A stretch of 40,764 bases of DNA from a virus. Where the stretch lies: the IMG/VR virus record IMGVR_UViG_3300049460_000379, positions 1 through 40,764 of that record; one strand, given 5' to 3'. Made by a program: the position numbers and the translations under genes. Positions 288 to 23,595 of the stretch are shown here, in pieces. The notes under the pieces were generated by a model, which saw nothing but the letters and a program-made list of their open reading frames with translations, did not search any database and was not told the origin of the DNA. Positions within the stretch are counted from its first letter, which is position 1, and every line of letters begins with the position of its first letter.

Positions 288-2174
288 TTACGGATGGTCG
301 GCGCGGTAGGCGTCGAACTCCCGCTTAAGATCCTGGATAGCGGCGGTAAGCAAGGGGACCATCTTCGAGTGATCGACCGTCTGGTATCGCGGTTCGATGA
401 CGCCGGTTTCTTCGTTTGCGCCCGAACCGTCCTTCTCTCCACGGACAGCATTCGGGACGAAAGGCTGAAGCTCATGCGCAAAGAAGCTATCGATCGTCTC
501 TCCCGGCTCGACCTTGAAGTTAAGCCTGTACGGCTTGAGTTGCATGATCCGGTCCAGTCCATCCGGTATAGGGACCTAGTTTTCCTTGAGGCGGTAGTCC
601 GAGGAAGTTGCGTATGTCGTTGCCGATGCCGTAAGGCTGATGGCCCCGACCAAGGTCGGCGATGTGCCGCCCTTCCAGAAATTCATGATCGCGCCATCCG
701 TGCCCTGCCGCCGAACCTCTAATACGGATCGGCTGGTCTGACTAGCGTACGTGTTAAACCCCTGGAGGAATGACCAACCGTCGTTGCCGTTCGTGCCGTC
801 GCAACGAGCGATGGCTCCGATATGGAACTGCGTAGCTCCAGATCCGCTAACTGTCGTTCCGTTGGCTCCTGCGTTCGAACCAGATCCGTTTATGTAGATA
901 TATCCGGCATCTGTTCCGCCAACCTGCGAATCCACAACGAGGTGGTCTGTGTACGCCGACGTAGACACGTTGTAGCTCTGGAGTCGAACGGAATTGGCAA
1001 TAGCAATATCGGGGGAAATCTGGAAAGGATTGGATTGACTTGCGCGATACACACCACCTGTGCACTGCCGTCCCGCGATACTGCCTGGCAAATTTGGGAA
1101 CGCCGGATGGGCATCGATAATGCCGCCCTTGTGCGCCAGATAGCGAGGGCCTGTTACGGCCGTGCTTGTGAACGTGCAGTCCTTGACGACTACGGTCCCC
1201 TGCGCAACACCGATGAAGTACGCCGAGAACGAGAGTCCCGATCCCACCGTAGCAGTGATCACACCCGTGAAGATCATGCCAGGAGAGCCCACATGCAAGT
1301 GGCTCTGAGCGCTACCGCTTATCGTATAGTCGGAAGAAAGGTAGACGGAACCGCTTGCGCCAGCCGTTACCTGAGAATTCAGGCAGGCTCCGAACTCCAT
1401 CTGTCCGCACTGAATGAAACCACCAGTCGTGGCGTATACGCCCTCACCGGCTGTTGCGATGACCTTGAAGCCAGCGATGAAGTACGTGGCCCCCTTTTCG
1501 GCGTAGAAGCAGGCAACGGCAGCCGACGTGACCACACAGGCGGACGGATTGGTCGTATTCCCAATGAAATAGACCTAACCCTCTCCAGTAAATGGTGCGG
1601 ACTAAGAAGCCCCAATGGAGTAACTTCCATCAGCGACGTTCACCGTCACATTGTGGCCGTTGAGATCCAGTGTCGATGAGATGACATCGCAAGCATGCTG
1701 GATGGTCTTAAAGGCCCCTGCTGCCGTGTTAGAAAGTCCGTTATTGTTGTCGTTGCCATCTGTGCGAACGTAGAAGATGCGGTCAGTACCAAGCCTTTCC
1801 TTGACGACGGCCTGAAGCGTGGCTGCGGATCCATCGCCGCGCTGGAAAGCTACGAGAGTCGCCCCAAGACCAGGGCCGACCGCCGCTAGGTCGGCTAGAT
1901 CAGCAGACGGGGAAACATTGTCACGGGTCCACACAACGGAATTCAGGGGGTCGCGAAGCTCGTACCGGTACTGCTGAGGCTGTAAGTACATGATAGCCTC
2001 GCCACGCGCATCCAGGGTAAGGGGATTGGCGTTCGCGATGGTCCCGGCCTTGTCAGAATACGTGGCAAGGGGCGTAGACGTACCAGTTTGGTAGGTATAG
2101 AGCCTGTAGCCCGCTGCGGGCTGGCCGACATTGTTTAGAAAGAGCTATTTAGCGCTAGGCGAAAGAGTTGCCAT
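288..2174 (-). CDS. Tailspike/tail fibre with C-terminal S74 intramolecular chaperone; four in-frame TAG
   Basis: 628-codon receptor-binding protein. The N-terminus (MATLSP, then GYRLYTYQTGT and LDARGEA) is the virion-anchoring head typical of podophage tailspikes. The middle (about residues 150-500) is Gly/Ser/Thr-rich and looks like a beta-helix. The C-terminus has the Peptidase_S74 self-cleaving chaperone: SSDYRLKEN, then LKPYRLNF, FFAHELQ and VDHSKMVPLLTAA. Under the standard code it is cut into four pieces by TAG at codons 10 (2145-2147), 191 (1602-1604), 200 (1575-1577) and 533 (576-578). The last lies directly inside the chaperone motif after RLKEN, and the frame continues in register, so it is read through rather than mutated. 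It ends at TAA. The TAG at codon 10 falls in the K-x-x-F segment where related tailspikes commonly have Gln. Confidence 0.93.
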
Positions 2175-2205
2175 AACCACCCTTGGATGATATGAGGTCG
2201 TTGGG

Positions 2206-2406
2206 ATGAACCAAGACAATCACACGTTGTTTCGAATCTTCATGGGGGTAGTAACTACCCCCGCCATTGCGTTCGTTTTGTATGGCATCGCCAGATTGGT
2301 GGCCATGGCCTTGGTCAAGTGGATGCCCGAGTCAGCGTTGAAGCGAAGACTTCTTACTGACACCGATACTGGACGCCTGGCCTACCGTCCCAAAGATCGG
2401 GCCTAG
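2206..2406 (+). CDS. Small membrane protein on the opposite strand inside the late region
   Basis: 66-aa ORF on the plus strand, starting at ATG 2206 with a GAGG-like ribosome site upstream. One hydrophobic segment (about residues 13-34, FMGVVTTPAIAFVLYGIARL) is followed by a basic tail (LKRRLL). It is divergent from the tailspike gene, and its last 75 bases overlap the 3' end of the 695-codon ejection gene on the other strand. The stop is TAG (2404-2406); read-through would add only two codons before TGA. Such a lone reversed gene between tail genes is the usual look of a moron expressed from its own promoter, for example a membrane protein acting in the lysogen. That role is inference; I see no clear promoter. 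Confidence 0.6.
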   Translation: MNQDNHTLFRIFMGVVTTPAIAFVLYGIARLVAMALVKWMPESALKRRLLTDTDTGRLAYRPKDRA

Positions 2407-4419
2407 CTGTGATTCGATGGCAGGTCGCATGAGTTTCGGGATGGACTGAAGGATCTGCTGGGATTCGGCTGAGGTAGGGTCGAGTAGCGCCTTACCCAGC
2501 TTGGCCTTAATCTCGTCCGGCACGCCGAATAGCTTGTATGCCGCGTTGACCGGAGCAACGAGACGCTGGAGGGTGGAGTTTTCGGCAAGCCCGGGCAGAC
2601 CAAGACCCTTCGTCGTCTGCGAGAGGATGTTCTGGCTGGCAAGGTTCTAGACCGTGTTGGATCCCGCCGAGCGACCCACGTTCTGTGCCTGTTTCACTCG
2701 GCTAAGGTCCTCCATGAGAGACTTTATCCCATCCGACTGCTGCGGATTAAGGTAGTCCGCTGCCGACGCGACTTTCTGACCAGTGACCTTCCTAGCAATC
2801 GAGTCCAGTGAACCCACAGCACGTCCAAACTCATCCGGGCGGAGATTTGGATTCCCCAGCGTGTCCACGTCAACGGGATTCTTCGTCACCTTGTCTACAA
2901 GGCCCTGTGCAATCTCCATTCGGTTAGCCGGAGCACTCATCGTACGGAAGCTGTCTCGGGCATCCTTGTAAGCAGGATTCTGGCGTTCCAGCTCTGTCAC
3001 GAATTCCTTTTTCGCCGAGGCAATAGCTGACTGCTCGGTCTTGCCGATACCCATCTGCGGCGCAGTGTTCAACTGGTCGTCCAAGGCCATCTTGATGTAA
3101 TGCTGACCCTTCAGAGACGTCATCGGGTCGCCGATATCGATCCCCTGATTGGCTGCAATGATCTTGGCCTGTTTTGCGGCCTGCTGGATCACTGGGCGCT
3201 GGCCTAGCTCCTGCATCTTTGGCGACGGGGCCAGTGTGCTATCAGCCGCCTTCTGGGCGTCGCTCAAAGCCTTGGCCGCATCATCCTTCCAATATTGCGA
3301 GTTTGCGTTGTTCTTCCCGTCTGCAAGCTGGGCATCCGCGTTCGACTGCCGAGCAACCTGCTGCGATCTGTCATCGTCGAATGCCTTCCCGTACTTTCCG
3401 CCGGCAACCTGATCCCGCCATGCCTTCGCGCTGGCTACATCCTCAGGCGTACCGGCTAGGGTGCGAAGGAAGTTGATGCGGGACGCGTTGTTCTGCGACG
3501 CCTGATCGACAAACTTACCTGCTATGGCAGGATCGGAGTCGGTAACGGCACGCTGAAGCTGGGCAATGCCGGGGCTACCCGTTGCCTCTGCAAGTGTCGG
3601 TTTAACGCCAGGAATGGAAGACGCCACGGTGTTCGGCTGGCCGTCTGCGAATCGAGCGATGGTGTTGGCGACGATGTCTCTCTGCCCGGAATTGGTCAGC
3701 GGGGCCACGAGAGACCTGATACCACGTACCGCCGCACCGCCGAGATTGACAAGGGCCTTGCCGCCAACGCCGCCTGCTGCGCCTATACCAGTATTGATGA
3801 GGCGCTGTCCTTCACCCTGATCGGTAGCAATGGGCTAGATGGCACCCTATATGCCACCAGAGGCCGCCGCACCGGCATAGCCCTAGGGAAGTATGCTTCC
3901 GCCTAGTCCAGCCGCCTTGAGAGCCGTACCGCCAGCTACGGCTTGCGCGCCCTGACCCACGATGTTGCCGGCGATGCCAGCCTTCGTGTTCATCAGTGGA
4001 GCGTCTTGCGCGTTAACCTGCGACTGATCGTCCTTTAGCTGGGCATACTTGTTCCCAAGACTGTCCAGAGCATCGGTGACAACACCCTTGTTGCCGACAG
4101 CTTTCTCAATCATATTGGTCGGCGACATAGCCACGTTAGCCAGGCCCACGCCAGCTTGAGCCATGCCACGTGCATTGTCGTAGACCGACTTGCCCATGCC
4201 TGCTAGCGCATTCTCCGTATTCGACCCGAGACCCGTCTCCGCAGGCTGACCATTCGGCCCCGCGTTAGCGTCGATCAGCTGATACAGCCCCGCCTTCTTG
4301 TAGAACTCGGTGGGGTCCATGCTGGCGTAGTACTTGGTACGGATCGCCGACGCTAGCTTGCCGTCAGGGATGTCCTTGTACTGCGGGTATTTTTGGCGAA
4401 AGTCGTCAAGTACCGTCAT
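2332..4419 (-). CDS. Large DNA-ejection-type protein (about 695 aa); four in-frame TAG
   Basis: Begins MTVLDDFRQKYPQYKDIPDG, a head common to podophage internal/ejection proteins, overlapping the transglycosylase stop by ATGA. Residues 160-225 are Gly/Ala-rich and hydrophobic (GAAASGG, GAAGGVGG), which fits membrane insertion. The rest is a long Ala/Lys/Gln-rich helical region. TAG occurs at codons 179 (3883-3885), 191 (3847-3849), 195 (3835-3837) and 591 (2647-2649); three sit within 17 codons, yet the frame is intact on both sides. The family often has a G-A-L-Q-P motif here and this protein has G-A-I-TAG-P, which points to Gln. It ends at TGA 2332. By position it is the gp16/gp20-like partner of the two upstream ejection proteins. 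Confidence 0.85.
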
Positions 4420-6224
4420 TTAAGGAGTCCGAGGGGGTCATGGTCCGGAGGCGTCGATGCACTGCCCTATCCGGTAGTAGTCGAGCCAAACTGCTTCATG
4501 CCGTCCATGATGATCTTCTTCTGTGAGTCCACCGCATCCTGTTGGCCCTTGATATCGACGTGGAGTACGTCGGCGACGGCGTTGAGGGACTTGTCAGACA
4601 GTTCCTTACGAAGCAGCTTCTTCGCTTCCTCAGCCGTGGAGATTGGCGTACCGCCCGCGCCGGTCTGGCCCGACATAATGCGCGCGTAGTCGGTTGATGC
4701 CGTCGTGATCGCCGCATCAAGCGCCGCCACATCCGGATCGCCCAACGCGGCCTGTCCGCCGAGCAGCCACTTGTTGATGAGCGGCGAGCCAGTGCGGTCG
4801 AGCTTGGCCGACAGTGCAAGGGCCTGATCCATGTTGTTCTGGAAGCCCTTTTCCGACTTCTGCATCATATCGGACTGCGACTGAAGCTTAGTCAGCGAGG
4901 TTTGCAGTGCCTTGTTACGACCCTTCGTCGTAGCGAGTTCCTGTGGTGTTACACCGGCATCCTTGGCGATCTGGGCCTTGATATTGGCGACCTGGGCACG
5001 CTGTCCCGTAGCCTCCTTACCGTACCCCTTGATGCCACTGTCACCGGTAAGGATGTCTGCCCACGCGGCATTGTGCAGGGCGTCGTCATTGAGGCCCTGA
5101 TTCACGCCGGAACTCTTGTCGGCCGGACCACCGGGGATTGGCTCAAGGGTCTGCCCGTCCGCCTGATATCGGTATCCGCTCGGAGCGCCGGACGTGCTCG
5201 TTTTCTTACCCATCACGCGTTGTCCACCGCCTGCCTTGGCGAGGACGGACGGCACATACGCCTGAGTCTCCGCAGGAAGCGACGATAGGGCAGCCGCTGG
5301 GTCGCCGTTGGCATCCTTTAGGGCCTTCGACACACGGCCAGGGCCGGCGTTGTACGCAGCCAGGGCGAGTGTGTTGTTGCCGCCGAAATAGTTCTGCATG
5401 GCGCCCAGATAGTCCTTGCCCACGCGAACATTTTCGGCAGGTGAGCCATCCTTAGCCGGGGCGACACCGAAGCCCGGATCAGCGGCCGTTCCAGGCATGA
5501 GCTGCATGAGGCCCTGAGCCCCAGCCGAAGACACGGCGTTCGGGTTGCCACCAGACTCCTGCTACATGACGGCCCCAGCGAGGCCAGTCGGAGCCGTCGC
5601 ACTGCCCTGCGACGGATCGGAAGCATAGTTCAGAGGCGAGGCAGTTCCCTTCGTCGGATCGACCATAGCCCAGCCCTGATCGGTCTGGATAAGCTGCGGT
5701 TTAGCCGGAGCAGCCGGTGAGGAATAGACCTGCTTGCCGGTCGCCGGATCGATAAGCGTGCTGCCGGGAGTGACTTGGATGAGGTCTTTCTTTGTCTGCG
5801 GGTCGATGGAGTTGGCGATCTTGCGCATGTTTTCGACCATGGACGGGTCGAACTGGGCGGGAAGGTTCGGCCCGAGGATCTTCGACGCCTCCGGGTAAAT
5901 CGTCTTGTAGACGTTCGCAGCACCTTCAGTGTCGCCAGCATCGGCGAGTGCCGTCACGAGGCGAGCATGCTGGCCGAGGCGTGCAAGGTCCTTATCCCCA
6001 ATAGACTTCTGCTGCTCACCCATCGCCGTGGACTGCTGCTGAAGCTTCAGGCCAGCGCTCGGGTCGGACTGATAAATCTGCGAGAGCGCATTCTGATCGC
6101 CACCTACGGCACTCTGGGCATACTGGGCAAGAATCGAGTTCTTGCGCTGATCCTGCCCACGATCAAAGCCGGAGTTGACTGCCCCTAGGATGTCAGGCTG
6201 GAGAAGGCCGCTAATCGTTGCCAT
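4416..6224 (-). CDS. Lytic transglycosylase-type ejection protein; two in-frame TAG
   Basis: 602 codons from ATG 6224, overlapping the upstream gene by ATGA. About residues 220-310 form an SLT/goose-lysozyme-like domain: QESGGNPNAVSSAGAQGLMQ (the Glu of ES is the expected catalytic acid), LMPGTA, and LAAYNAGPGRV. The flanks are Ala/Gln-rich and helical. It is expected to travel in the virion and open the peptidoglycan during DNA injection. TAG at codon 221 (5562-5564) falls immediately before QES, splitting the catalytic motif under the standard code. A second TAG at codon 586 (4467-4469) is followed by 16 more codons ending at TGA 4416, which overlaps the next start as ATGA. Reading through both gives the usual gene spacing of this operon. 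Confidence 0.92.
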
Positions 6225-7201
6225 CAGATGCCACCCCAAAGGCCGTCAGACAAGGTCGCATTGGAGCCGCCTGGGTTGTACTGGCTGCCAAGGTACTGGC
6301 CTGCTGCGCCCGCAACCTGCTGCGCACCGTTCGCCCACGAGTTAGCCGCACCGTAGATGCCGTTAGCCGTAGCCGTGCCAGCGTTCGTCAGGTTGTTCCC
6401 CACTGCGTTGGCATAGCTCGTTCCATTCGCCACCATCTGGTTGGTAGCCGTCTGGGCCACGCCTGCGAGAGAGGCAAGGCGGTTAGCGTAGGGCTGGTAG
6501 CCCTGCTGATCCGCATAGTCGTTGCCGAACTTGGTGAGTGCCTTCAGCGTAGCTCCGGAGTTGAGCCCACCGCGAGCAGCCGCCGAAGCTTGAACAGACT
6601 TGTTGCCTTCATCGAGGCCGAACTGGTAGCCCGGAGTCGCCCGGAACGCTGCGAACGCGTCCTACTGAGCCTGAGCCGTGGACTGTGGTGTAGATGCCTG
6701 CGTGGCCTGCTTTCCACCGCCGTACTGGCTATAGAGCGTATTCAGTCGGCTATTGATGGCCGAGAGGCTTGAGTCCGTCTGGTAGTCCTTGTGGAATCCA
6801 GCGTAATGCTCGGCGACGGCCTGATCCCACGCCTGTTTATAGGCCGGGTCAGACTGGTACAGGGCAGAGTTGACCGTGGGCACACCCTGGTCATCCAGAG
6901 ACACGAATGGATTCGATGTGGAGCCTGCACCGTTAGATGCCGTGCCGCCACCGTACTGGCCCGAGCCATCCGTGGGGAGGCCAAGTAGCTTCATGTACTG
7001 ATTAAGGCCAGTCAGTCCCGCATCGCGGAACGGAGCCTGATCGGCCCTCTGCTGGTTGAAGATTTGTAGCTGGGTGGCGTTAGCCGAATCAGCGGCGTCC
7101 GTCTGGGCTTGCCCCGCCTTCTTCGCTGCCTTTGCCTACTTGCTGGAGGCGTAGACTGCACCGCCTGCGGCTACGGCTGCCGCCGCCACACCCCACGGCA
7201 T
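6224..7201 (-). CDS. DNA ejection/transfer protein, P22 gp7-like; two in-frame TAG
   Basis: 325 codons from ATG 7201 (TAATG overlap with the cupin gene). An Ala-rich hydrophobic N-terminus is followed by a Gly/Ser/Gln-rich middle. The C-terminal domain has TPGYQFGLDEGNKSVQ, AARGGLNSGATLKAL, and NRLASLAG, the signature of podovirus internal virion proteins that are ejected ahead of the DNA. TAG at codons 22 (7136-7138) and 180 (6662-6664); the second lies just before the DAF-x-x-F-x-x-TPGY block, so without read-through the conserved half is lost. It ends at TGA 6224. Confidence 0.88.
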
Positions 7202-7614
7202 TAGACGCCCTCCACGATCTGGTGTTCGTCGCGCACTTCAACGCTACCCGTTCGGGACACGTTGTGAATGCAGAGGACGAGGGTATCGTCTTCGAGGGAC
7301 TCGAACATGTGTTTCACTCCGGCCTTGATGTAGATAGGAAACGGGGCGGTGTAAGTCTTGCCTTCACAGGTGACGGAGCCCTTTGCGACAAACGAGGTGT
7401 GGTCGTACTCGTGCGAATGCTACGGGACAAGCGTATGCGCCTTCGGGATGCGCATTTCCTTGATGAACACGCCATCGGCAGCGGTATACTCGGCCCCGTA
7501 GGGCTGGCACTGGGCGCGGACTGTGCAGGTATCGCAAGGACTGGCCTACTTGGCGATATGCGCTGCAACCATCGACATCGCCGGTCCGCCAGCCATAAAT
7601 AGTTCTGCGCTCAT
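7201..7614 (-). CDS. Cupin-fold metal-binding protein; two in-frame TAG
   Basis: 137 codons from ATG 7614. The core reads H-S-H-E-Y-D-H, then AKGSVTCEG, and AGVKHMFESLEDDT with a further His: a small double-stranded beta-helix with cupin-type metal ligands. An upstream CDTC and a QC may be extra cysteine ligands. TAG at codons 23 (7546-7548) and 65 (7420-7422). The second sits in L-V-P-TAG-H-S-H, where similar phage cupins commonly have PQH. It lies between a 2-oxoglutarate oxygenase-like gene and the ejection genes, an arrangement seen in some podophages. The substrate is unknown. It ends at TAA 7201. Confidence 0.82.
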
Positions 7615-7618: not shown

Positions 7619-8182
7619 TCACCGTATGCAGATAATGAGGGTGATGCGGTCGCTATCGGAGTCGTTCTTGACCCAGTGAAGGCGACTATTGTCGAAAGTG
7701 TAGAGGTCTCCCGGTTCCGGCCTTAGTTCCTCGCCTTCGAAGTGGAAGGCCTGGTCCTTGTTACCCTTCACCTGAATCGCGTACTTCCGGTAGTGTCCGG
7801 CGTGCCAGCCCTGATCGATATGCGGACGGACTTCACCACCGGGGGGAATCTTGGTGATGAGGACGCCGCCGAGGTATTCGCCACCGACACGATGCAGGAC
7901 CTTTCGGGATAGTGACCACGCGGCGGGGATATTCTTAATCACCGGATACCACGATGACACGTGCTCGGCATTGAACGCCTGGATATCACCCGTGAAGTTA
8001 GCCCAATCGTTGTAGCGGACCCAGATGTCGGAAACAGCCTTGTGTGGCGTCTCGTAAGCATCAGTCCGCATCCGGTGCGTATTCCATACCTGCGGATTCT
8101 CGTCGAGCTACCTGACCAAGGCCGACACGTCGTATCCTGACTCAATGTGGCTGATAGCCTCTCCCTTATGAAACCTGCTCAC
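7619..8182 (-). CDS. Aspartyl/asparaginyl beta-hydroxylase-like 2-oxoglutarate/Fe(II) dioxygenase; one in-frame TAG
   Basis: 187 codons. The start is GTG 8182, in a GTGA overlap with the upstream stop; the alternative ATG at 8071 would drop a coherent N-terminus. The double-stranded beta-helix shows the H-x-D facial-triad part (RPHIDQGWHAG), then AIQVKGN, PGDLYTFDNSRLHWVKN and a DRITL segment that supplies the distal His and the Arg for 2-oxoglutarate. TAG at codon 25 (8108-8110) lies before LDENPQVW. It is expected to hydroxylate a protein side chain; whether the target is a virion protein or a host factor cannot be told. Its place among tail and ejection genes suggests late expression. Confidence 0.87.
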
Positions 8183-8661
8183 TGATTGTCCAGTAGTTGC
8201 TGCTGCTTGTACGAGGGCAGCTTGGATATCTGAGAAGCCCCGGAAAGGTTGTTCTATTGAGACACCTGAGTCTGTGTATTGACGACATCCGTGACTGCCG
8301 AAACCTGCGATGCCACCGACTGGATGTTGCTTGCCACACTCAACACCTGATCCTGAACCTCTGTCTGCGTCGTGGCGATGTCCGGAAGCGTGGCTGCGTC
8401 GATCCCGCCAAGACGCCTATCCGCAACCTCGCGGAAGAACTTGTACCAAACCTGCGACATGCGCCCGCTGCTATCGGTAAGGGGAACGTTGGGCTGCGGT
8501 AGCCAATCCACCTGCTTACGCGTAGCCTAGCTTCCCGACCATGCGACACGACCCGTGGCAGACCCGACGCCCGAAACGGTGGCGCATACTCCAGAGGCAA
8601 ACTTGATGGGCAGTGAACCGGATCGCGTCCCCGCAACGGTTAGGCAGGATGCGGTAGCCAT
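8179..8661 (-). CDS. Small virion/tail-associated protein with coiled coil; two in-frame TAG
   Basis: 160 codons from ATG 8661 (TAATG overlap). The first 45 residues are Gly/Ser/Ala-rich. The block QVDWLPQPNVPLTDSSGRMSQ and the following WYKFFREV are typical of a phage structural protein encoded near the tail genes. Residues 95-135 form a Gln/Ser/Val heptad-like helix (QSVASQVSAVTDVV). TAG at codons 45 (8527-8529) and 136 (8254-8256). The stretch after the second TAG ends QQQLLDNQ at TGA 8179, which overlaps the next GTG start by four bases. The exact role is not known. Confidence 0.75.
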
Positions 8662-9239
8662 TAGTTAGGAAGACCGATGATCCATGAATTTATCGTGTGC
8701 GTCCCGCCACCTGCATACACCTCCTCAGTGATGCCAGAGACCACGCAGCCGCTACCTCCTACGGTTGTCAGATCGATCGCCGAACCGCCAGGCGACGCGG
8801 CCAACTGGAAGTTGTTCGTCGTTGCTGCGGAAACATAGTATACCGTGCCCTCTGTGAGTCCAGACGGAACGGTATCGCCATAAATGACGACCTTCTGGCC
8901 GTTGCTGAACCCGTGAGCCGTGCAGGTAATCGTGTCGGCTGTCGTGTCAGCGATGAATTCCTTTGGGCTTCCGGCATTTGGCGAGTATCCGAGGTAGGTT
9001 CCTCCGTTCCACAGGCCAAGCCACCGCACCGTCTGTCCAACAGGCACAGTGATGTTCGCCGAAGCCGTGATCGACCTCTAGGCAGAGGCAGATGCCCCAA
9101 AGGTGACGGCCGGCCTAGCGTATCCGCCGCCCGTGAACTCGTTGGCACCAGTTCCAGCAGGGAACCCGCTGTGGGCACTGATTGCAGTGATCGTAAGCGC
9201 ATTCAACATCGCGTCTTTAGTAGTGGTTGCGAAGCTCAT
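8661..9239 (-). CDS. Tail/head appendage protein; one in-frame TAG
   Basis: 192 codons from ATG 9239 (ATGA overlap with the gp10-like gene). The N-terminal half carries the ANEFTGGGYARPAVTFG motif found in many small phage tail or decoration proteins. The C-terminal half is a Thr/Gly-rich insert (TCTAHGFSNGQKVVIYG, GLTEGTVYYV) resembling an immunoglobulin-like or adhesin-type beta domain of surface proteins. TAG at codon 54 (9078-9080) separates the two halves. It ends at TAA 8661. Confidence 0.78.
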
Positions 9240-10648
9240 TTCACACCCTTTGTAGCGTCTAGATTTGCCCCGTATACAGCAATCTTAACGGGCTCTGTTG
9301 TGCGAAGTCGGTACACGCGACGGCGTGACAGACCTAGCCGTCTGACGATACCCCGCATCCGATAGTCGCCAATCTGTCCCATCTATATGTCGCGCTCATT
9401 GCTAAAGTTACGACATCCATCGTCAGACCAAGAAAGTCGCCACTTGGGATCACCGCCAGACGTTGGAGCAACATCGCCGTTCAGGCCAACGCCCATTTCT
9501 CCGATGAGTTCCAGGCTGGAGTGACGTAGCCACTTGCTCTCGTTCTCTATCACAGCCCACGCCCTCTCACGTTCGATAATATTTCCGTTGTCGGTGAACG
9601 TGTCGAGGTCGAGAACGTACAGGTTGCCGTTGACGTAATCACCCGTCACATGCATCCCGCCGATGAAGAAATAGGCGTTGTCACGCTGTTGATCACGAAT
9701 GCCCGTAATGGGATTCCGATAGGTAAGCTGTGTCCATCGTCTGGCCGAGGCATCCCATGCCCATGTGGCAAATCCAGGGAACGTAAGGATGTAGAACGTG
9801 TGTCCGTTCTGCTGGTAGGTGTAACCCCACGTCTCCGTGAGGTCGCCGTATGTCCCAATCGCTGTCTCCAGGGCATGAGTGGAGATGCGTTCAGGGCTGT
9901 AGCCATCGGCTTGGTACACGATGCCCGTTCCGCTCTCATTCTGTCCAAGCCAGAACACTGTGTTGTTGGACTTGGCCGGGGTGTAGCGAGCACAGCACCC
10001 GTATTCCATCATGGCCGTGCGGGTGAAGACTAGGTCTGCATCACCCGAAGTCTGGGCTATCTCAATCGTCTGCGTGCCAAACAGCCACAATTCACGGTGG
10101 TCGCTGAGTACTGAGATAATCGGGTCGGGCTGTGCTTCTGCTGAAGCGAAACTAAGGGTATCAAGTGTTGATGCGTCGTCGATATTCGACCAGCCGTAGG
10201 TCCCGTTTTCATTAGGGAACACGATATAGCTGTCCTGAAACGTCCCCTATGCCGTCGTTGGAGCCCCGTCTACATCAGATAGGGCCAGGGTAGTCAGGTC
10301 ATACAGGCTCCATCCTGAGCTGTGCATGACGGCGACCTGCGTATCGTTGTGCTGGATGCATACACGGCCCGTGCCTGGAATCGTCCCGAGTAGAGTAGGT
10401 TCGCCCGAACGGCTAACCTGATACAAAGTCGCGCCCGACACAACATAACCTGTTCCGTTGACAGTGTGGGCTCCACGGATGGGTCCTGCGCCCACCGTAG
10501 CGAACAAACGACGACCCGGAGCCCCGTAGAACATGCCTTCTTCGGACGACCCGGGTGGTGCAGGCTCAAAGAACAGGTTGACCAGCGTCTATGCGGCCAG
10601 CGGAAGGGACCGAGAGGTGTAGGAGGCACCGAGAAAGTCGGTCTTCAC
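9236..10648 (-). CDS. P22 gp10-like packaged-DNA stabilisation (tail hub) protein; three in-frame TAG
   Basis: 470 codons. The start is GTG 10648, directly after the TAA of the connector gene. The N-terminus has the family pattern Y-x-SRS...VNLFFE...GAPGRRLFATVG. The middle contains repeated Gly/Trp beta-propeller-like strands (GTQTIEIAQTSGD, YRNPITGIRDQ). The C-terminus has RRLGLSRRRVYRL and EPVKIAVYGA, as in phage stabilisation proteins. It should sit under the portal and close the head. TAG at codons 20 (10589-10591), 134 (10247-10249) and 422 (9383-9385). The first lies in A-A-TAG-T-L-V-N-L, where relatives often have Gln before the (R/T)-x-VNL. Confidence 0.88.
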
Positions 10649-13577: not shown

Positions 13578-13862
13578 TCAGGCCCCGCGCAACGCCTTGC
13601 CAATCTTCGACAGCCTGCTTTGCTCAATCTCAATCTGCTTGGCACGGAGCTGGCCCGTCACCATTGTCTGTTCGAGCACCTTTTCAAGCCGCTTACTGGC
13701 CCGAATCATCGACCACAGCCACTCGCGCTGCTCGGCATCCGTCTCGTTCTGCCACTTCGCCAGGATTTCGTCCTGAAGCTGTGTCATTGATTCTTGGTAG
13801 ACCTCATTATCGAGGACTTCCTTGGCTAGCTGGGCGCGTTTCAGTTCCTCGGTCGCACTCAT
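13578..13862 (-). CDS. Hypothetical 94-aa helical protein after portal
   Basis: Intact, TAG-free ORF overlapping the portal stop by ATGA. It is almost entirely amphipathic helix (EELKRAQLAKEVLDNE; RLEKVLEQTMVTGQLRAKQIE), Gln/Glu/Lys-rich, with no Cys. Many podophages carry a small protein like this between portal and scaffold; function not known. Confidence 0.75.
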   Translation of the reverse strand: MSATEELKRAQLAKEVLDNEVYQESMTQLQDEILAKWQNETDAEQREWLWSMIRASKRLEKVLEQTMVTGQLRAKQIEIEQSRLSKIGKALRGA

Positions 13863-16012
13863 TCGGCTTCACCTTGTGCTGGCTCGGCTGAAGCCGCCTT
13901 CAGTTCGTCGATCTGCTGCTGCAACGCGTCAATCTTGGCATTCTGCTCGGCGTCGATATCGGCATGGGCCATACCGTGGGCCGTTTCCACACCCTTGATG
14001 TGCGTCTCGCGGTCCTTGCGGACCATATCCGCCTGACGAAGCGCGATATCGGCCTCTGTCGAACGCTGCTTGAGGTCCATCTCCTGCGCCTTCTGCTCAA
14101 GCTGAGCCTGCTTGAGTGCATTGTCCTGCTGCGACTGGACCGACTGCTGTTTGAGCTGCTCATTCTCCTGCGAGGTCTGCTCAAGCTGCTGCTGCATTTG
14201 CTGCATCTGTTCCATAGCCTGCTGCTTCTCGGCCTGGTACGCCTGCGGGTTAGGCGGCATACCTGTCGGCTGAGGGCTGACGAAGCGTTCGGGGTTCTTG
14301 AACTCGTTGGCCTCGGCGAACAGGCGGATGGACTCGGCGATGTTCTCCGGCCCCACTACGCCCATCGGGACACCAAGCTGCTGGGTCTGGATAAGGGCCA
14401 TGATGCGTGCCGCCTGCTGCTCCTTAGAGCCTGTCCCCAAGCCAACCTTGATGCTGACGTTGAGCTGGTCTTTCCACTCGGACGGGTCGATGGGTGTCCA
14501 CGCCCCATTTAGCTTGAGCATTTCCGGCTGGTTCTGGTGCTGAACGGTTAGCTTCAGCATCTTGGCGAACAGCTTGCGCATACCCACGGCACAGAAGCGG
14601 GCGATAAGCTCCATGCGCGCATCGGACTTCTGCGTGATGATGCTTACGCCGGTCGCCGTCTTGTTCAGTGAATTGGCGTCGGTGCCCTGGGAGTATCGGG
14701 TGAAGCCGGTGCGGTTCTCCTTCCACCCCTCAAGCCACTCGTTGAACTCGTAGGCAGGGGCGGCCAGGCTGGGCTGTACGATGGTCTGGAATGCGTTAGC
14801 GGGCGCTCCGCGACCACGCACGACACCACCCGGACGGTTCTCCAGCCAATCGGCAATGTTCACGTCCGCATCGGTGTTCAGATACGTGCGCTGGTTGACC
14901 GACAGATACAGGTTATCGACGATGGCCCGGACGACGTTGGTCCGGAGCTTCTGGGGCTGCAACGCGAGGTCTGCGGGGCAATCGCCGTAGAACGCATGAG
15001 GGCGAGGAATCGGGCAGATCCAGACAAACGGATGATCGTCAACCTGCTCTACGGCACCCTTGCCATCGGCATACATCGCCAGGGTTTCCTCGATCATGCA
15101 CGCCTTGACCCACTCCGCCACACCGTCACCATCGCGGTCTGCCTTGATATAGACCTCGGCACAGTTGTACAGCTGATGCGACTCGGCTGGGGTCGTGTAA
15201 CCGTCCTCTACCGCGTCGCCAAGCATTTCGATGGACTCGGCGTCACTCGGATCGCCTGAGCCCGTGCCCACGTCGGACAGGTCGTAGCCGTCTTCCTCCA
15301 GCTCGAACCGACGCTTGCGGAACACATGGGCGATCATCGCCGGCTCGTCACCCCATCGGGCGTTCGGGTCAACACGGACCTCATGCGGGGCACACACGGC
15401 GACCTTGATGCACACCTTTCGGTCATTCTTGACCACGGTGAAGGTGAGGCCCTGCTCGTCCTGCTCGGGATCACCGGCAAGCTGCCAGCCGTCCTGCATG
15501 AGCATGAGCAGCTGCTCAGGTGCCTGCCCTTCGAATGTCTGCCGGTCGTCCTCGCTGTCTTCCTCGGCCCAGACCTTGACGAATCCTACCTTCTGGATCA
15601 GCGCGTCCTTGAACCAGTCGTAGATGATTTCTACGCCGTCATTCCGGACGAAGAACAGGTGATTGATGTAACCCGTAGCTTCCTTGGCTACGCCCTCCGA
15701 CTCTGGGCGACGTTCCTCGAACTCCACCGCGTTGTCACCGGACACGAAGATCCGCATCAGCTGCGGCAGCATCCACTCGATAGTGTCAGCGACGTCCGTG
15801 GCCACGAAGTCAGAACGGTCGTCAATCTCAGGCGGGGCGAACTCACCCGTGGCCTCGGCGTTGTAAGCCTCCAGGTTGCGCAGGCGGGCACGGCCAACGT
15901 CACTGTCAGGACCGCCGATAGCCGAACTCAGGGCCTAGCGGCACATCGCCTGGATAGCGTCGTCCGACAGCTTCTCTCGCTTGGTCGTGCTTACGGATTG
16001 CGGATCAGCCAT
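13859..16012 (-). CDS. Portal protein, P22-type; one in-frame TAG
   Basis: 717 codons from ATG 16012 (TAATG overlap with terminase). The motif DVADTIEWMLPQLMRIF, then HLFFVRNDGVEIIYDWFKDAL, YGDCPADLALQPQKLRTNV and RYSQGTDANSLNKTATGV are characteristic of P22-like portals. The last 170 residues form a long Gln-rich helical barrel (MEQMQQMQQQLEQ). It forms the dodecameric DNA gateway at one capsid vertex. TAG at codon 26 (15935-15937) leaves an internal ATG at 15805 as the only standard-code start, which would remove about 70 residues including the N-terminal helices. It ends at TGA 13859. Confidence 0.93.
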
Positions 16013-17325
16013 TAGCGAGTAAGCCTTCGGTAGTTGATGGGCGCATGGGCATCAGCCCCTGGCCTGGATACGTGATCGATGGCCATGAGGCCAAAGGCGT
16101 CAGCGGCGTGACTTGACCAGTCGTGATTAGGTCCAAGGCCAATACCGCGCTCTTGATCCTTCTTCTCGTGATACCAGCCCAGCGCGTCACGGCCTGCCTC
16201 GGTTGTCTTCTCATTGAAGAACATCGACGGGAGTAGCCGCCTGACCGCCTCGATGCGCTGTGTAGCGGCACCGGCACCCATGTTGGGGATAACCCTTACG
16301 TCGAAGCCAGCGTCTCTCAGGGCGCTCTGGTAGCTGACGGAGTGAACCTTGTCGTTCGTGGCTCCGTCATGCGGCAGGATGATCTGCACCTTGCCCGGAC
16401 CGTAGCCGCTGTGCGTCAGCCACTGAATGTGTGTGGCGAGTGGCTGGCCCACGGCCTCGTAGTAGTTTAGGTTGCGGATTTCCTTGCCAACGAACTACAC
16501 GATCCAGATAGCGCAGGCGTCAGCCTTAGCCCCCGTGCCACCAATGTCCCAGTAGGCCCTTGTGGTCATCAGAGGGTCGCCGGCCACAAACCCTATCCGA
16601 CCCTCAGCCTTGGCCTGCGTGAGCCCTGCTGCGAAGTAGGCGCCATCCACGACGGCCAGGTAATCGCCCTCCCAGATATGCGGATACTGGTCGGGTCGCT
16701 CCGCCATGTCTCGTTGGCGATCACGCTCCAGCTTGGCCGGAAACTTCGGGTTGTCCCTGTAGTTGAGCTGGACGACCTTGGTGCGCGGGTCTTTCGAATG
16801 CCGGAACCGTGACTCAACCGGAGCCGTCTTGCGCTTCGGGTTCCAGGTCACCCACAACTCGGCGTTCCAGTCCGACCCCTCTTCACGAAGCGTGGGGATC
16901 AGTGTAGACCATGCCTCGTCGGTTACTGGCTCAGCCTCGTCCACCCAGCACAGCAGCAGACGACCCTTTGACTTGATGCTGGCAATGTTGCGATCAAGGC
17001 CCGAGAACGCGAACGAGATCCTCCCGTCCTTGCTGCGTATCGTCTTCTCACCGACATCGTAGTAGTCGGCGAGGAATGGCTCGTCCTCAATGGCCCGCTT
17101 GATTTCCTCCAGCGAAGAGTCGGCCAGGGAGTTCATAAACTGGCGAGCGCATAGGAGAATCCCGCTTATGCCTGCCTTGCCGAACATGTAGCCCTTGACG
17201 CAGGCCATCTTGGCAAAGCTACGAGTCTTGCCAGACCCCCGGCCGCCATGGGCGCCACGGACGTCAGCCTCACCCTCAAACACGGGTATCAGCTTCTCGG
17301 GCAGCTAGATCTTAGCTGTCGCCAC
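16012..17325 (-). CDS. terL: Terminase large subunit; two in-frame TAG
   Basis: 437 codons. The best start is GTG 17325, the only start in frame after an upstream TGA; it gives VATAKI-TAG-LPEKLIPVFEG, matching the usual head of this family. The ATPase has Walker A GGRGSGKTRS and Walker B-like LLCWVDEAE. The nuclease half has AYWDIGGTGAKADACAIWIV and the C-terminal block NHDWSSHAADAFGLM with the expected acidic and His residues. TAG at codons 7 (17305-17307) and 277 (16495-16497). The second, in W-I-V-TAG-F-V-G-K-E-I-R, falls where relatives characteristically have Gln (A-Q-F-V-G), and it separates ATPase from nuclease under the standard code. It ends at TAA 16012. Confidence 0.94.
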
Positions 17326-17683
17326 TAGACACCATGGTCACAAGCTCGACTCTCGTCACGCCGTCGATTGACCCGCTATGCTTCTGCTCAACAGAGTCAG
17401 ACCAGCCCTGGTTCTTCAGCCAGAAGATGGCCCCCGTAGGACCGGTCTCTGCCAGCCGCTCTTCCCAAGCCATTTCCAACCGAGTCCTCGCCCTTTTTAT
17501 AGCGTCGGAAAACTCGGGCTTCTTTGCGTACTCCCACAGGGAATCGCGGCAACAACCCAGAGCGAGACAGAGACCATTGACCGTTGGGATCTTCCTGTGG
17601 TCAGGGTCTTCACATACGACAAAGTACGCCTCTGCGGCGTCCTCAAACTCTTGCGGGGTTGTCCATAGTGGTGGCCTAGCCAT
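17312..17683 (-). CDS. terS: Terminase small subunit
   Basis: 123 aa, TAG-free, ATG 17683, overlapping the terL start by 14 bases. The family pattern is TPQEFEDAAEAYF, then KIPTVNGLCLALGCCRDSLWEYAKK, FSDAIKRARTRLEMAWEERL and TGAIFWLKNQGWSD. The middle part is a helix-turn-helix that binds the packaging site on phage DNA. It is the first gene of the packaging/head operon, preceded by about 340 bases without a gene that carry paired palindromes. Confidence 0.9.
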   Translation of the reverse strand: MARPPLWTTPQEFEDAAEAYFVVCEDPDHRKIPTVNGLCLALGCCRDSLWEYAKKPEFSDAIKRARTRLEMAWEERLAETGPTGAIFWLKNQGWSDSVEQKHSGSIDGVTRVELVTMVSSGDS

Positions 17684-18024
17684 TATTCATCCTGGGGGCT
17701 GCCTTAGCTTGGCCCGTACTCATGCGGAAACTCTATTCACCACTTCGCCACTAGCCCTTGGGCCGCAACGAATACTCTATTCATAATCTATGCACGTTCA
17801 CGTCACGCGAACAGGCTAAACCGCACTAACTTGTCTAACCCGACAACTGAAGCGGCCTCACTGTTCACTTATGACTAGATTTCACGTTACGTGAACAGAT
17901 ATGCCTTGGGATGACTCGGAATAGAGAAGATCAAGTTATTGCAGGGCATGCGATGATCTGTGACCCACAGGGCATGGAACTCGGATATGTCCTGTAGGGC
18001 TTAGCCGCTTGCTGGGAATTCGGC
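17684..18024. promoter_or_regulatory. Late-operon control region with two palindromic sites and repeated CTCTATTC
   Basis: No gene is seen here. Two 17-bp near-perfect palindromes, core TTCACGTnACGTGAA with one mismatch in one copy, lie at 17796-17812 and 17880-17896. Their centres are 84 bp apart, close to eight helical turns. CTCTATTC occurs at 17731-17738 and 17775-17782 (the latter inside the palindrome GAATACTCTATTC, 17770-17782) and inverted at 17919-17926. The region sits directly upstream of the terminase genes, so it is a likely binding site for a late activator or repressor and probably holds the promoter. I cannot place a convincing -35/-10 pair. Confidence 0.6.
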
Positions 18025-18147
18025 TCAGATGCCAGGAGACCACCAACGTACATAGCGGACTACCGGCTTTCCATTCTTCTCTCGGTCAGTACGCCGCCAG
18101 CTAAACATCCACTGCGGACGGCAAACCTCAGCTACCAGATCCCACAT
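18025..18147 (-). CDS. Small 40-aa basic/aromatic protein
   Basis: Short ORF starting at ATG 18147 with a strong AGGAG seven bases upstream, ending TGA. The product starts MWDLVAEVCRPQWMF, is rich in Trp and Arg and ends VRYVRWWSPGI. No family is recognised with confidence. The start codon overlaps, as TGATG, the stop that the upstream tRNA-containing ORF reaches if its TAG is read through. Confidence 0.6.
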   Translation of the reverse strand: MWDLVAEVCRPQWMFSWRRTDREKNGKPVVRYVRWWSPGI

Positions 18148-18182
18148 CAGCTATCTCCTGGCCACCACGACTCACTTACTTC

Positions 18183-18461
18183 CTAGCCGGTGGCATCGTC
18201 GATGTAGATGGCGTTCCCGGAAGGATTCGAACCTCCGACCGACGGGTTAACAACCCGCTGCTCTACCTCTGAGCTACAGGAACGTGTGGCGGCGGCTGTT
18301 GGATTCGAACCAACGTTGGCGACGGTTAAATCGCTGCTTGGGTTAGAGCCAAGCCCAATCGGCCTCTCTGGCAAACCGCTTGAAAAGATCCGCTCCCAGT
18401 TATCCGAGAACGTCTTGGCGTCCACCTGAGTGGGCCGCTGAATGTCACCCTTGCCGTTCAT
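18183..18461 (-). CDS. Small conserved-looking ORF whose 3' part runs through both tRNA genes
   Basis: ATG 18461 overlaps the o-spanin stop by ATGA. The first 27 codons (MNGKGD, then RPTQVD, NWERIF) resemble a short, about 30-residue, phage protein found near lysis genes. After that the frame enters the CUA tRNA at 18380 and stays open through both tRNAs to TAG 18183-18185. Read-through of that TAG would add 11 codons and stop at TGATG over the next gene. The likely history is that the tRNA cassette was inserted into the 3' end of this gene. Whether the long tail is translated is doubtful. Confidence 0.5.
   Translation of the reverse strand: MNGKGDIQRPTQVDAKTFSDNWERIFSSGLPERPIGLGSNPSSDLTVANVGSNPTAAATRSCSSEVEQRVVNPSVGGSNPSGNAIYIDDATG
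18209..18283 (-). tRNA. tRNA-Asn (GUU)
   Basis: 75 nt including encoded CCA. The acceptor stem GTTCCTG/CGGGAAC has seven pairs (one G-U). D arm TAGCTCAGAGGTAGAGC, anticodon loop TTGTTAA (anticodon GUU) on a five-pair stem, T loop TTCGAAT, G73. A normal class I tRNA, three bases from the CUA tRNA, so probably made from the same transcript. Confidence 0.93.
18287..18380 (-). tRNA. Amber-reading (CUA) class II tRNA, probable code-15 tRNA
   Basis: 94 nt including encoded CCA. Acceptor AGCGGTT/AGCCGCC: A1xC72 mismatch, G2-C71, C3-G70, G4-C69, G5-C68, U6-G67, U7-A66; G73. Positions 8-9 are UG; D stem CCA/UGG with a GAGAGG-CCGA D loop. Anticodon stem CTTGG/CCAAG, loop CTCTAAC, anticodon CUA at 18344-18346. 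Variable arm 22 nt with a GCGA/TCGC stem; T arm GTTGG-TTCGAAT-CCAAC. The body is closest to serine tRNAs, but the open 1-72 pair, G73 and U35 match known requirements for glutaminyl-tRNA synthetase to charge amber suppressors. This explains the 33 in-frame TAGs in the late genes. Confidence 0.93.
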
Positions 18462-18851: not shown

Positions 18852-18943
18852 TCGTCGCCCTTGCCCCAGCCCACAAGGCCAACCATCACCAGCACAACGG
18901 ATGCTAAAGCCAGGGTGAGTAAGTTAACGGCTAGCTGACACAT
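18848..18943 (-). CDS. 31-aa single-pass membrane peptide in the lysis cassette
   Basis: ATG 18943 to TGA 18848, overlapping the protease stop upstream and the i-spanin start downstream. The sequence is MCQLAVN followed by about 20 hydrophobic residues (LLTLALASVVLVMVGLVGW) and GKGDE. It could be a lysis regulator such as an antiholin-like peptide; that is inference. A longer start further upstream would lie inside the protease gene and is less likely. Confidence 0.5.
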   Translation of the reverse strand: MCQLAVNLLTLALASVVLVMVGLVGWGKGDE

Positions 18944-19547
18944 ATCCGGCCTCTTGATACTGCGCAGGCGTGAAGATGATCGGAATGGAACCCATGAGCT
19001 TGAATTGTGTGTCTTGATAGTTGATGACAACGGCGTAGCTCGTCACCGCAACCACCTACCCTGACTCGCTGAAGATCCCCGACCCGGAGTCGCCATAGAA
19101 CCCGTTGATGTCGTAGATCGTCGTAACAACACCTTCCTTCTCGTCGTACCCGGCGACATGGCCTTCGCGGTAGAGGAAGTTGAGGAACGCCGGCTGTCCC
19201 CAAAGGCAGATGAAGTCACCAGGCTTAGGTGCCTCCCCCAACTTGGCCCACGAGGTGAAGGTGGTATCCACGACCAGCATCGTGTGGTCGTTGCCATCCT
19301 CGATCTGCTGCTAGACCTTGGCGTCCTTACCATTGACCGTGAGCGCCTTCATCCCCACGAAGCAATGTGTCGCCGACAGGATCAGGTGTGGGCCAATGGA
19401 CGTACCGCTACACACCCCGTTGCCGTTCATTTCAAGCCGGAGGGCGACTGCTCGACTTCGACTTAGCAAGTCCTCTCGCGGTGAATGCGTAGCGCAAGAT
19501 GCCGTGGCCAAGATAAGGACGAGGTAGAACGCGATACGCAGCTTCAT
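18924..19547 (-). CDS. Trypsin-like (S1/V8-like) secreted serine protease; two in-frame TAG
   Basis: 207 codons from ATG 19547. The N-terminal hydrophobic signal (FYLVLILATASC) has a weak lipobox, so the protein is exported and perhaps lipid-anchored. The catalytic residues are visible: His in LILSATHC, Asp in DGNDHTMLVVD, Ser in YGDSGSGIF; GTSIGPHLILSATH is the usual strand before the His. TAG at codon 79 (19311-19313) separates His from Asp and Ser. TAG at codon 164 (19056-19058) directly follows GDSGSGIFSESG. Only read-through gives a complete triad and the following strands (VVAVTSYAVV). It ends at TAA 18924. Its place among lysis genes suggests action on periplasmic or envelope proteins late in infection. 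Confidence 0.85.
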
Positions 19548-19733: not shown

Positions 19734-19735
19734 GC

Positions 19736-19957: not shown

Positions 19958-20434
19958 TCACGGCGTCATACAGAGTCGATACTCAGCATTGCGGCGATTG
20001 ACCAGCCCCTGAATCTTTCGTCCGCCCGCGTAGACCCACATAAGAAGGGCCTTGCACGAGCCGGCACGGTCGCCCTCGTTAGCCTTGCGCGCCATCGTAG
20101 AGCCGCAGAAGGCGGACACTCCGATGTTGAACGTGGTGCTCGTGAAGCTCGCGGCCTGGTTAACCGTCATCCGTTCCGCTGGTACGCAGGATAGGACGCC
20201 CTAAGCCGAAATTCGGATATCGCGCTGGAACCAGAGGTTGCACTGGTAATCGTCGTAGTGCTTACCCAGCACCACCTCGGGTCCCGTATGCCCAGTGCAG
20301 GCCGTCGTAACCCCTACAACGTCCGAGTAGCCCTCGTAGACCGTACCCTCCCATGGCTGGGTAAAGGCTGCGGCTGCGGCGACTACGGCGGCAGTGAAGG
20401 CCGCAAGTGCTTTAGGGCTTAGGCGTAACGACAC
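19958..20434 (-). CDS. SAR endolysin, GH24 lysozyme; one in-frame TAG
   Basis: 158 codons. Start GTG 20434; the gene overlaps the holin 3' end by 23 bases. The N-terminus is a weakly hydrophobic Ala-rich signal-anchor (ALAAFTAAVVAAAAAF), as in P1 and phage 21 SAR endolysins. The catalytic triad is E29, D38, T44 (PWEGTVYEGYSD...T), with T4 lysozyme spacing. The C-terminal half has FNIGVSAFCGSTMARK, GDRAGSCKALLMWVYAGG and GLVNRR. TAG at codon 78 (20201-20203) cuts the protein after the triad, so the standard-code product would lack the substrate-binding lobe. It ends at TGA 19958. Confidence 0.92.
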
Positions 20435-21252: not shown

Positions 21253-21276
21253 GACAGCGATCCTCGGTGGGTAAGT

Positions 21277-21301: not shown

Positions 21302-21356
21302 GGATAAGTACGCTTCGTGGTACGTAAAGCTGGTTATGGCATCAGGTAGCGGACAT

Positions 21357-22181
21357 TTAGGCCACGCGTGCCAGTGAGAACCGGATCTCTGCATTCTTGT
21401 ATTGGCGCTTCAGGTATGAGGCCAGCGAACGGTTTTCGTACTTTCGGCAAAGGTAGTCGAGCGTGAGAGGCATTTCGCAGAACGTTCCATCGCGAACCTC
21501 GTTGAGCACCACAATGCCACGCCAGTGCGAGTTAGCCATGCCCTTGTAGGGCTCGTCGTGGAGATAGCAACTGCCAGCGACGATACCGTGACGCATCTGG
21601 CCTGTGGCGTACTGTACGGAGCCCTGCTGTAGACCCTGGACGTGCCCTTGCACGAACGTCGTGCCGATCTTGGCGAGCCGGTTGCTGATCGTCCCACTGA
21701 TCGGCTTACCTGTATTCGGATTAGCGAAGTAGTGGGCGTAGGTCACGCCATCAATAACCACTGCGCCGGGCGAACCGTGGACGTAGTCGATGACTTCCCA
21801 GCCTAGCTTGCGATCTACAAACTGATGCGAGCCAACCGCCCCAGCCCACTTCGGGCTGGCCGAGATAGCGCGCTCAAGCCTCCATTCGTGGTTGCCGCGA
21901 AGGATGACCTTGCGACCTTTGTAGCCAGTCATGGCATCGTGAAGGCGGATCAGGGCCTCGTTGCCGGCATCAAGGTCGTCCTGATAGCGCAAGCCCTCAA
22001 GGTCGATTGACCCTGGCGAACTCCACGAGGACAGACTTTCGAAGTCCCAATGGTCGCCTAGGTGGACAACCACATCCGGCTTGTAGTCCTGAATCGCACG
22101 ACCAACCCACTCAAGATGATCGGTCGGCGCTCCTGGCTTGATCTGTGTGTCGGGTAAAATCAAATGGCGACGCGGTTTCAT
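21357..22181 (-). CDS. Calcineurin-like metallophosphoesterase
   Basis: 274 aa, TAG-free. Metal-binding motifs in order: LPDTQIKPG (D-x-Q/H), VVHLGDHWDFE (GD), LRGNHEWR (GNHE), then AHYFANP and VQGHVQGLQQG (GH-x-H-like). The usual target is a phosphodiester or nucleotide. Start ATG 22181 in a TAATG overlap with the preceding gene, end TAA 21357. It closes the middle operon before the lysis cassette. Confidence 0.87.
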   Translation of the reverse strand: MKPRRHLILPDTQIKPGAPTDHLEWVGRAIQDYKPDVVVHLGDHWDFESLSSWSSPGSIDLEGLRYQDDLDAGNEALIRLHDAMTGYKGRKVILRGNHEWRLERAISASPKWAGAVGSHQFVDRKLGWEVIDYVHGSPGAVVIDGVTYAHYFANPNTGKPISGTISNRLAKIGTTFVQGHVQGLQQGSVQYATGQMRHGIVAGSCYLHDEPYKGMANSHWRGIVVLNEVRDGTFCEMPLTLDYLCRKYENRSLASYLKRQYKNAEIRFSLARVA

Positions 22182-22791: not shown

Positions 22792-23009
22792 ACCGCCTCC
22801 CGAAAGGCTTGTGTAGGGTGCCGGTGCCCAGATTCGGGGCTGGGCGGGCTGTACGCCTCGACCGGCATAACTGAGGCGGCGACCGGGTTCTCCCAATCCA
22901 AACCGCGTAAATGGTCACGGTTACCGTTATCCGTGTCGTCCCGCCAGACGAGGCTCCGTCGTTGCGACGGCAATCCCGGAACGTTCTGGCTTGCCATAGC
23001 ACCGGCCAC
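22707..23009 (-). CDS. Possible 100-aa hypothetical protein in the 22.8-23.1 kb gap
   Basis: Between the GIY-YIG-like gene (ends 23101) and the membrane gene (starts 22791) this is the most gene-like frame, starting at ATG 23009 or 22997. It is basic and Arg/Pro/Trp-rich and overlaps the next gene by 85 bases in another frame. There is no recognised domain and no clear ribosome site, so it may not be real. The 90 bases 23010-23100 show nothing else. Confidence 0.35.
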   Translation of the reverse strand: MAGAMASQNVPGLPSQRRSLVWRDDTDNGNRDHLRGLDWENPVAASVMPVEAYSPPSPESGHRHPTQAFREAVWRRQRWDRLLRLGRISPLASQSTGPRT

Positions 23010-23100
23010 TTTGACCGTGTTGGTAGAGGCTTCCGGGAATATCAGGCGTGTAATCCGCCCTCGATGCCTAGGGTAGGGGTGGATTTCGACGTAGTCACAG

Positions 23101-23595
23101 TCAGGAAGGAAAATAATTTCCGGTCATGGATGCGTGCCTTGCTTCAGCTGCACGCTTCGTCAGCTGAGACTGATTCGGCTTGTATCCCCTGGGCCTTACA
23201 TGACGCTGTGCCGCCAGTGAGATTGCCTCTACTGGCACGTTTTCTAGATCATCTTGTGCCCGCAAATCACCGGCTCCGGCATAAAACCACTCGCCCAAAC
23301 ACTGGTGCCTAATCAGGGCGGCATGAACGCACCGCTCGGCGAGCTTAGATTCTTGGACACTAGCCAGGCAGAAATACCTGCACCTTCGTATCGGGAAAGG
23401 ACAACTCGTCTAAATGTCTGAGACCCGGCTCTTCAGCCGACTGCTACGGCCGACCTTCATGTACCTATTTCCACTGATATCGAAGCATTCGAGCAGGTAG
23501 ACAACGGGGAACATAGAGAACCTATATTTGCTAGGAGTAGGTTCAGGGTAAGCCCGTATTTCGCATTGCCGGCAGTCCTCCTTTTGCCCATTCAC
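23101..23595 (-). CDS. GIY-YIG-type endonuclease-like (T5orf172/MUG113-like) protein; one in-frame TAG
   Basis: 164 codons from ATG 23595. The core reads VYLLECFD...YMKVGRSSRLKSRVSDI-TAG-TSCPFPI, then ERCVHAAL and LGEWFYAG. This is the V-x-K-I/V-G-R-x-x-x-x-x-R-x-x-x-x-Q-T-x-x-P layout of T5orf172-like GIY-YIG domains, and the TAG (codon 62, 23410-23412) takes the place of the usual Gln before T-x-x-P. The C-terminal part is basic (RPRGYKPNQSQLTKRAAEARH). It is the only gene upstream of the lysis cassette with an internal TAG. It ends at TGA 23101. Confidence 0.72.

Follow-up and report, generated by a model that had tools for sequence, protein, structure and literature searches.

A temperate podophage whose late genes very probably read TAG as glutamine and which encodes its own amber suppressor tRNA

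The DNA analysed here, referred to as the window, is an IMG/VR virus record of 40,764 bases (IMGVR_UViG_3300049460_000379) with a GC content of 58%. Its late genes lie on the minus strand, from 23595 down to 288. The replication genes are found on the same strand, further upstream of the late block, and the plus strand carries a repressor, ERF, SSB and an integrase, up to 40764. The early, replication and lysogeny genes (DnaB, resolvase, repressor, ERF, SSB, integrase; 23603-40764) contain no in-frame TAG; one of them (29208-29954) has an internal run of Thr-Glu repeats (TETETE...). The integrase, repressor, ERF and DnaB, together with an SU10-type capsid and portal and the ejection proteins, identify the phage as a temperate podophage, as the original prediction had stated. 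Its description as 'P22-style' held only in part: the capsid and portal are of SU10 type (Pfam), and the head-closure and ejection families are P22-like. No DNA similarity to known phages was found.

The late genes, all on the minus strand, are interrupted by TAG codons at the following places. The tailspike with its S74 chaperone (288-2219) has TAG at codons 25, 206, 215 and 548. It is followed by a putative ejection protein, assigned through its relatives (2332-4419; codons 179, 191, 195 and 591), an ejection protein with an SLT transglycosylase domain (4416-6239; codons 226 and 591), a DNA ejection protein (phrog_598; 6224-7201; codons 22 and 180), a short tail fibre-like protein (7201-7614; codons 23 and 65) and a protein of unknown function, g8179 (8179-8661; codons 45 and 136). 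The head genes encode a head protein-like product (8661-9239; codon 54), the head closure Hc3/stabilisation protein g9236 (9236-10648; codons 20, 134 and 422), a virion structural protein (10649-11302; codons 51 and 123), the SU10-type major capsid protein (11644-12609; codon 21), the scaffold (12622-13548; codon 56) and the SU10-type portal (13859-16012; codon 26). The large terminase (Terminase_3; 16012-17325) has TAG at codons 7 and 277, and the small terminase, terS (17312-17683), has none. Further upstream are a trypsin-like protease (18924-19547; codons 79 and 164), a lysozyme-type endolysin (19958-20434; codon 78) and a T5orf172/GIY-YIG-like protein (23101-23595; codon 62). Besides terS, the late-region genes g7619, g11302, g13578, Rz, g20818, the phosphoesterase, g22181 and g22555 are free of TAG.

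In total, we counted 32 in-frame TAGs across 17 minus-strand open reading frames (288-23595) and not a single in-frame TAA or TGA, all late genes terminating at TGA or TAA. The TAG at base 18688 is located just ahead of the likely true start of Rz1, and the safe count is therefore 31 TAGs in 16 genes. The original prediction of 33 TAGs in 18 genes was thus slightly too high, while its statement that only TAG occurs in frame was confirmed. Under a single-mutation null, the chance that 32 of 32 in-frame stops are TAG is 3.6e-7. Relatives of the phage likewise use TAG exclusively as in-frame stop. When the frames downstream of the first TAG were compared with L450, the differences amounted to 146, 81 and 581 at codon positions 1, 2 and 3, respectively, indicating that purifying selection acts on the sequence past the first TAG. 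As had been predicted for S74 and the transglycosylase, conserved domains cross TAG sites, namely S74 (residues 540-592, TAG at 548), SLT (219-312, TAG at 226) and T5orf172 (32-105, TAG at 62). The in-frame TAG recoding is therefore real. None of the 26 late genes of the window uses TAG as a terminator, but this is not significant by itself, since non-recoded relatives end only 11 of 215 late genes with TAG; for this reason we did not retain the missing TAG terminators as proof of recoding.

The recoding is limited to the virion and lysis genes. Late genes contain 32 TAG versus 374 glutamine codons and early genes 0 versus 177 (Fisher p = 1.1e-5), leaving the early and lysogeny genes TAG-free. 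The same split was found in 12 recoded relatives, in which late-type alignments contained 236 TAGs versus 4 other stops, and early-type alignments no TAG in 10,555 codons (in this tally, loci of one contig that overlap entered twice).

The residue encoded by TAG was inferred by aligning the late proteins with homologues from fetched relatives and scoring every TAG column for all 20 residues, with a home-made column score that is not Codetta itself. Over 29 scorable columns, glutamine reached +22.8 nats, followed by alanine (-9.5), serine being at -12.7. As a control, the same scoring correctly named 61 of 61 sense codons, also when reduced to 28 columns, and the glutamine call was recovered in 1999 of 2000 bootstraps. 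At terminase codon 277, all 132 relatives had either Gln (129) or TAG (3), and at codon 20 of g9236 nothing but Gln (9) or TAG (11) was observed. Where the window has TAG, relatives most often have CAG (98), followed by TAG (23), as expected for a CAG-TAG exchange. Glutamine also ranked first in each of 16 recoded genomes scored separately, with antisense columns included, though only weakly in the Rhodanobacter prophage described below (+1.6). Counting against this reading, the TAGs of capsid codon 21, terL codon 7 and g8179 stand in columns where relatives seldom carry Gln. Most TAG positions are not conserved between relatives, and TAG is a minority glutamine codon, accounting for 32 of the 406 late ones. 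We have no proteomic data, and the meaning of TAG is inferred from sequence alone; nonetheless, it is very likely that TAG is read as glutamine in the late genes. The prediction that TAG is a sense codon, as in code 15, thus held.

What the original prediction had missed is a tRNA able to read this codon, as well as the existence of a recoded clade and its presence in bacterial genomes. A 94-nt amber suppressor tRNA with a CUA anticodon is encoded inside the late gene block (18287-18380, minus strand), as found with ARAGORN, with Rfam (tRNA, 41.1 bits for a cut-off of 29) and in the sequence itself. Its variable arm is long (type II), and it shows an A1.C72 mismatch, G2-C71, G73 and an encoded CCA. 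ARAGORN labels it as a pyrrolysine tRNA; we rejected this identity because the label rests on the anticodon only and the TAG columns call glutamine. The closest non-CTA tRNA is a tRNA-Ser that is only 70% identical, so that the origin of the tRNA body remains open. Within this block, some TAG-bearing genes (the lysis genes and the GIY gene) are located upstream of the tRNA, which therefore does not strictly precede them. A promoter scan around the tRNA disclosed no promoter-like site, and its time of expression is consequently unknown. Directly after it comes a tRNA-Asn (GUU) of unknown role (18209-18283, minus strand), whose place is taken by a tRNA-Gln (UUG) in the relative G004 (L437). The approximately 525 bases between the tRNA-Asn and terS (17684-18208) have no assigned gene.

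Relatives fetched with the terminase, portal and ejection protein showed the same recoding and carried a CUA tRNA close to their terminase genes, so that tRNA and recoding co-occur; this includes related phages with short-arm tRNAs, which display the same TAG-Gln pattern. A natural control was provided by L459, a non-recoded phage whose capsid, portal and terL are 88, 66 and 67% identical to those of the window: neither in-frame stops nor a CTA tRNA were found in its 22 kb.

A scan of bacterial genome contigs with a tRNA pattern led to Rhodanobacter glycinis S10, a named gammaproteobacterial strain whose record is not marked as a MAG; the scan disclosed no host for this exact phage. The integrase of the S10 prophage adjoins a host tRNA near 252.8 kb, and its CUA tRNA (273969-274043) has U1.C72. 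About 35 in-frame TAGs occur in the genes downstream and none in the replication genes. R. glycinis S10 carries prfA (release factor 1) and glnS, and 10 of 56 sampled open reading frames (about 18%) end in TAG. The host of this related prophage thus uses the standard code with RF1, a conclusion that cannot be transferred to the window's own host. Portal searches covering 398 genomes from the order of R. glycinis and 369 from its class yielded one more recoded prophage, G234, in a genome of this order, with 8 TAGs in its portal and 6 in its terminase. Its CUA tRNA, which is reduced and was missed by ARAGORN, also has U1.C72. By inference, the host of the phage studied here is probably a gammaproteobacterium as well.

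We then considered which synthetase could charge the suppressor tRNA. It meets the GlnRS features U35, G73, a weak or open 1-72 pair and G2-C71. Canonical tRNA-Gln also has G3-C70 and G36; the window tRNA has C3-G70 and A36 instead, the latter being unavoidable since the tRNA must read UAG. It does not meet the serine hallmark of a paired 1-72 (A1.C72, versus G1-C72 in the four R. glycinis tRNA-Ser that were read). In all 22 CUA tRNAs listed for the clade, position 1-72 is unpaired and G2-C71 and G73 are present; the mismatches are of five kinds, and the bodies form five clusters at 75% identity. As some of them were found with a pattern requiring C72 and G73, this set is biased. A fair sample comprised nine distinct CUA tRNAs, from the window and from loci fetched by protein similarity alone; all nine were mismatched at 1-72, compared with 39 of 1020 other tRNAs (p = 5e-13), the latter being mainly initiator Met (16) and Gln (10). 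Among CUA tRNAs sampled from IMG/VR without such conditions, 12 of 67 were mismatched at 1-72, all with G73. Another 27 of these 67 have G1-C72 with A73, which does not fit Gln, and may insert another residue. CUA tRNAs with a much reduced D arm, missed by ARAGORN, were also seen in L529 (17270-17340) and L091 (2812-2890, minus strand), and both look mismatched at 1-72.

In E. coli, an amber tRNA-Ser was made to accept Gln by changes at 1-72 and 3-70, and some amber tRNAs accept Gln by virtue of their central anticodon U (PMC9976931). From this precedent and the shared 1-72 mismatch, we infer that the clade tRNAs are built for the host GlnRS. Charging of the window tRNA with Gln by this enzyme appears likely, although no charging assay was performed; similarly, the tRNA probably works like a canonical tRNA-Gln without being one, its acceptance of Gln being inferred. 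We found no report of an open 1-72 pair shared by phage CUA tRNAs in the literature searched, which did not cover Borges 2022.

The explanation that best accounts for these data, and that we hold to be very likely as a whole, is that late-gene TAG means glutamine and is read by the phage's own late-region CUA tRNA, probably charged by GlnRS; the charging, the dosage-dependent timing and the host are inferences. In this model, the phage would write part of its late-gene glutamines as TAG and make its own amber suppressor from the late region. The body of this tRNA is serine-like, while its acceptor end (unpaired 1-72, G2-C71, G73) and U35 match the identity of GlnRS, by which it would probably be charged. 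The lysogen and the early infection would need only TAG-free genes, which can be translated by the standard machinery of the host. Late transcription would then yield the suppressor along with the messages that contain TAG, and the capsid, terminase, tail and lysis proteins would reach full length only once the tRNA has accumulated and outcompetes RF1. Other authors have suggested such a timing role of recoding in gut phages (cited in PMC10746230); in the present phage it is inferred without expression data. A bolder reading, towards which we lean without much assurance, is that phages repeatedly build amber Gln tRNAs from unrelated bodies, the first acceptor pair being opened (A.C, U.C, C.C, C.A, C.U) while G2-C71 and G73 are kept for the host GlnRS; in temperate phages that infect ordinary Gammaproteobacteria, this would act as a translational lock on the late genes.

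Several other explanations were weighed. That the TAGs are nonsense mutations of a decaying prophage, or sequencing or assembly errors, is all but excluded: we found no evidence supporting it, only TAG is affected, selection is strongly purifying past the first TAG, and the same situation, with a matching tRNA, recurs in many independent contigs and in two bacterial genomes. We rejected it on the basis of this selection and of the relatives. Programmed or leaky readthrough, in which TAG would still terminate and the short and extended proteins would both be functional, is very unlikely. The presence of RF1 in a related host means that some termination at TAG is to be expected, and the sequence does not exclude it; however, the TAGs are scattered, mostly non-homologous and for the most part unconserved between relatives, and truncation at capsid codon 21, portal codon 26 or terL codon 7 would leave no usable product.

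A reading of TAG as serine, through recognition of the tRNA by SerRS, is suggested by the type II body, by the combination of long variable arm and G73, which SerRS recognises too, and by the tRNA-Ser at 70% identity. Column conservation led us to reject it (-12.7 for Ser versus +22.8 for Gln), as did terL codon 277 and g9236 codon 20, where relatives have only Gln or TAG. The broken 1-72 pair and the short-arm tRNAs of related phages with the same TAG-Gln pattern also argue against it, making it very improbable. Finally, the unpaired 1-72 might serve something besides GlnRS (resistance to peptidyl-tRNA hydrolase, blocking of other synthetases or an initiator-like role), Gln identity resting on U35 and G73 alone. 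In favour of this, initiator tRNA-Met is the other 1-72-mismatched class (16 of 39), and the central anticodon U is the route by which some amber tRNAs take Gln (PMC9976931). Against it, the other mismatched non-CTA phage tRNAs are mostly tRNA-Gln (10 of 39), the amber tRNA-Ser required the 1-72 and 3-70 changes to accept Gln (PMC9976931), and the three G-C pairs that initiators have in the anticodon stem are missing from the window tRNA. We consider this possibility unlikely and retain a role of the open pair in recognition by GlnRS as the likelier inference.

Recoding of TAG to Gln by means of a suppressor tRNA has been described before (PMC9523058, PMC11210395, PMC10879173). Code 15 has been described in crAss-like and Lak phages of gut Bacteroidota (Peters 2022, PMC9523058; Cook 2024, PMC11210395; Borges 2022, via other papers), with which the present phage shares TAG as Gln, a phage-encoded CTA tRNA, the concentration of TAG in late genes and a standard-code host (here that of the related prophage). 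It differs from them in being a temperate podophage of about 40 kb and 58% GC with an integrase, in having relatives integrated in Gammaproteobacteria, and in using TAG as a minority Gln codon. The suppressor-tRNA phages with theta ribozymes (PMC10879173) are also recoded Caudoviricetes with CTA suppressors, mostly predicted to be of Gln isotype; in contrast, no ribozyme was found in the window at the Rfam gathering threshold, and its tRNA has a serine-like long arm and a broken 1-72 pair. The laboratory amber tRNA-Ser (PMC9976931) is similarly a type II CUA tRNA given Gln identity by acceptor-end changes including 1-72, whereas the present one is natural and phage-borne, with an outright mismatch that recurs on several bodies. 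In a survey of jumbo phages, alternative codes amounted to 0-0.65% outside rumen, pig and human gut (PMC13037316). New is that this recoding occurs in temperate podophages with small, GC-rich genomes, a family that has members integrated in Gammaproteobacteria, including a named strain; new as far as the literature was searched is the open 1-72 pair common to the family's suppressor tRNAs that were checked, on varied bodies. Why and how phages switch code is unresolved, in part since most recoded phages known so far are gut viruses that have not been cultivated; the integrated relative in R. glycinis S10 should make the change testable at the bench. The open 1-72 pair also offers a simple sequence rule for Gln amber suppressors that automatic tools mislabel as tRNA-Pyl. 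In the phages of this family, standard annotation splits the capsid, portal and terminase genes.

On a terminase tree, the recoding label needs two to three changes. A single origin of recoding is thus unsupported for terL, and phage mosaicism makes this tree a poor guide. L460/L467 (IMGVR_UViG_3300037418_000758) has far fewer TAGs per gene than other relatives, which could possibly reflect an early stage of recoding or a partial reversal. The phosphoesterase (21357-22181) has 98-99% identity to those of L434 and L439, which are also recoded but show merely about 30% identity in the portal; this contrast points to recent exchange inside the recoded group.
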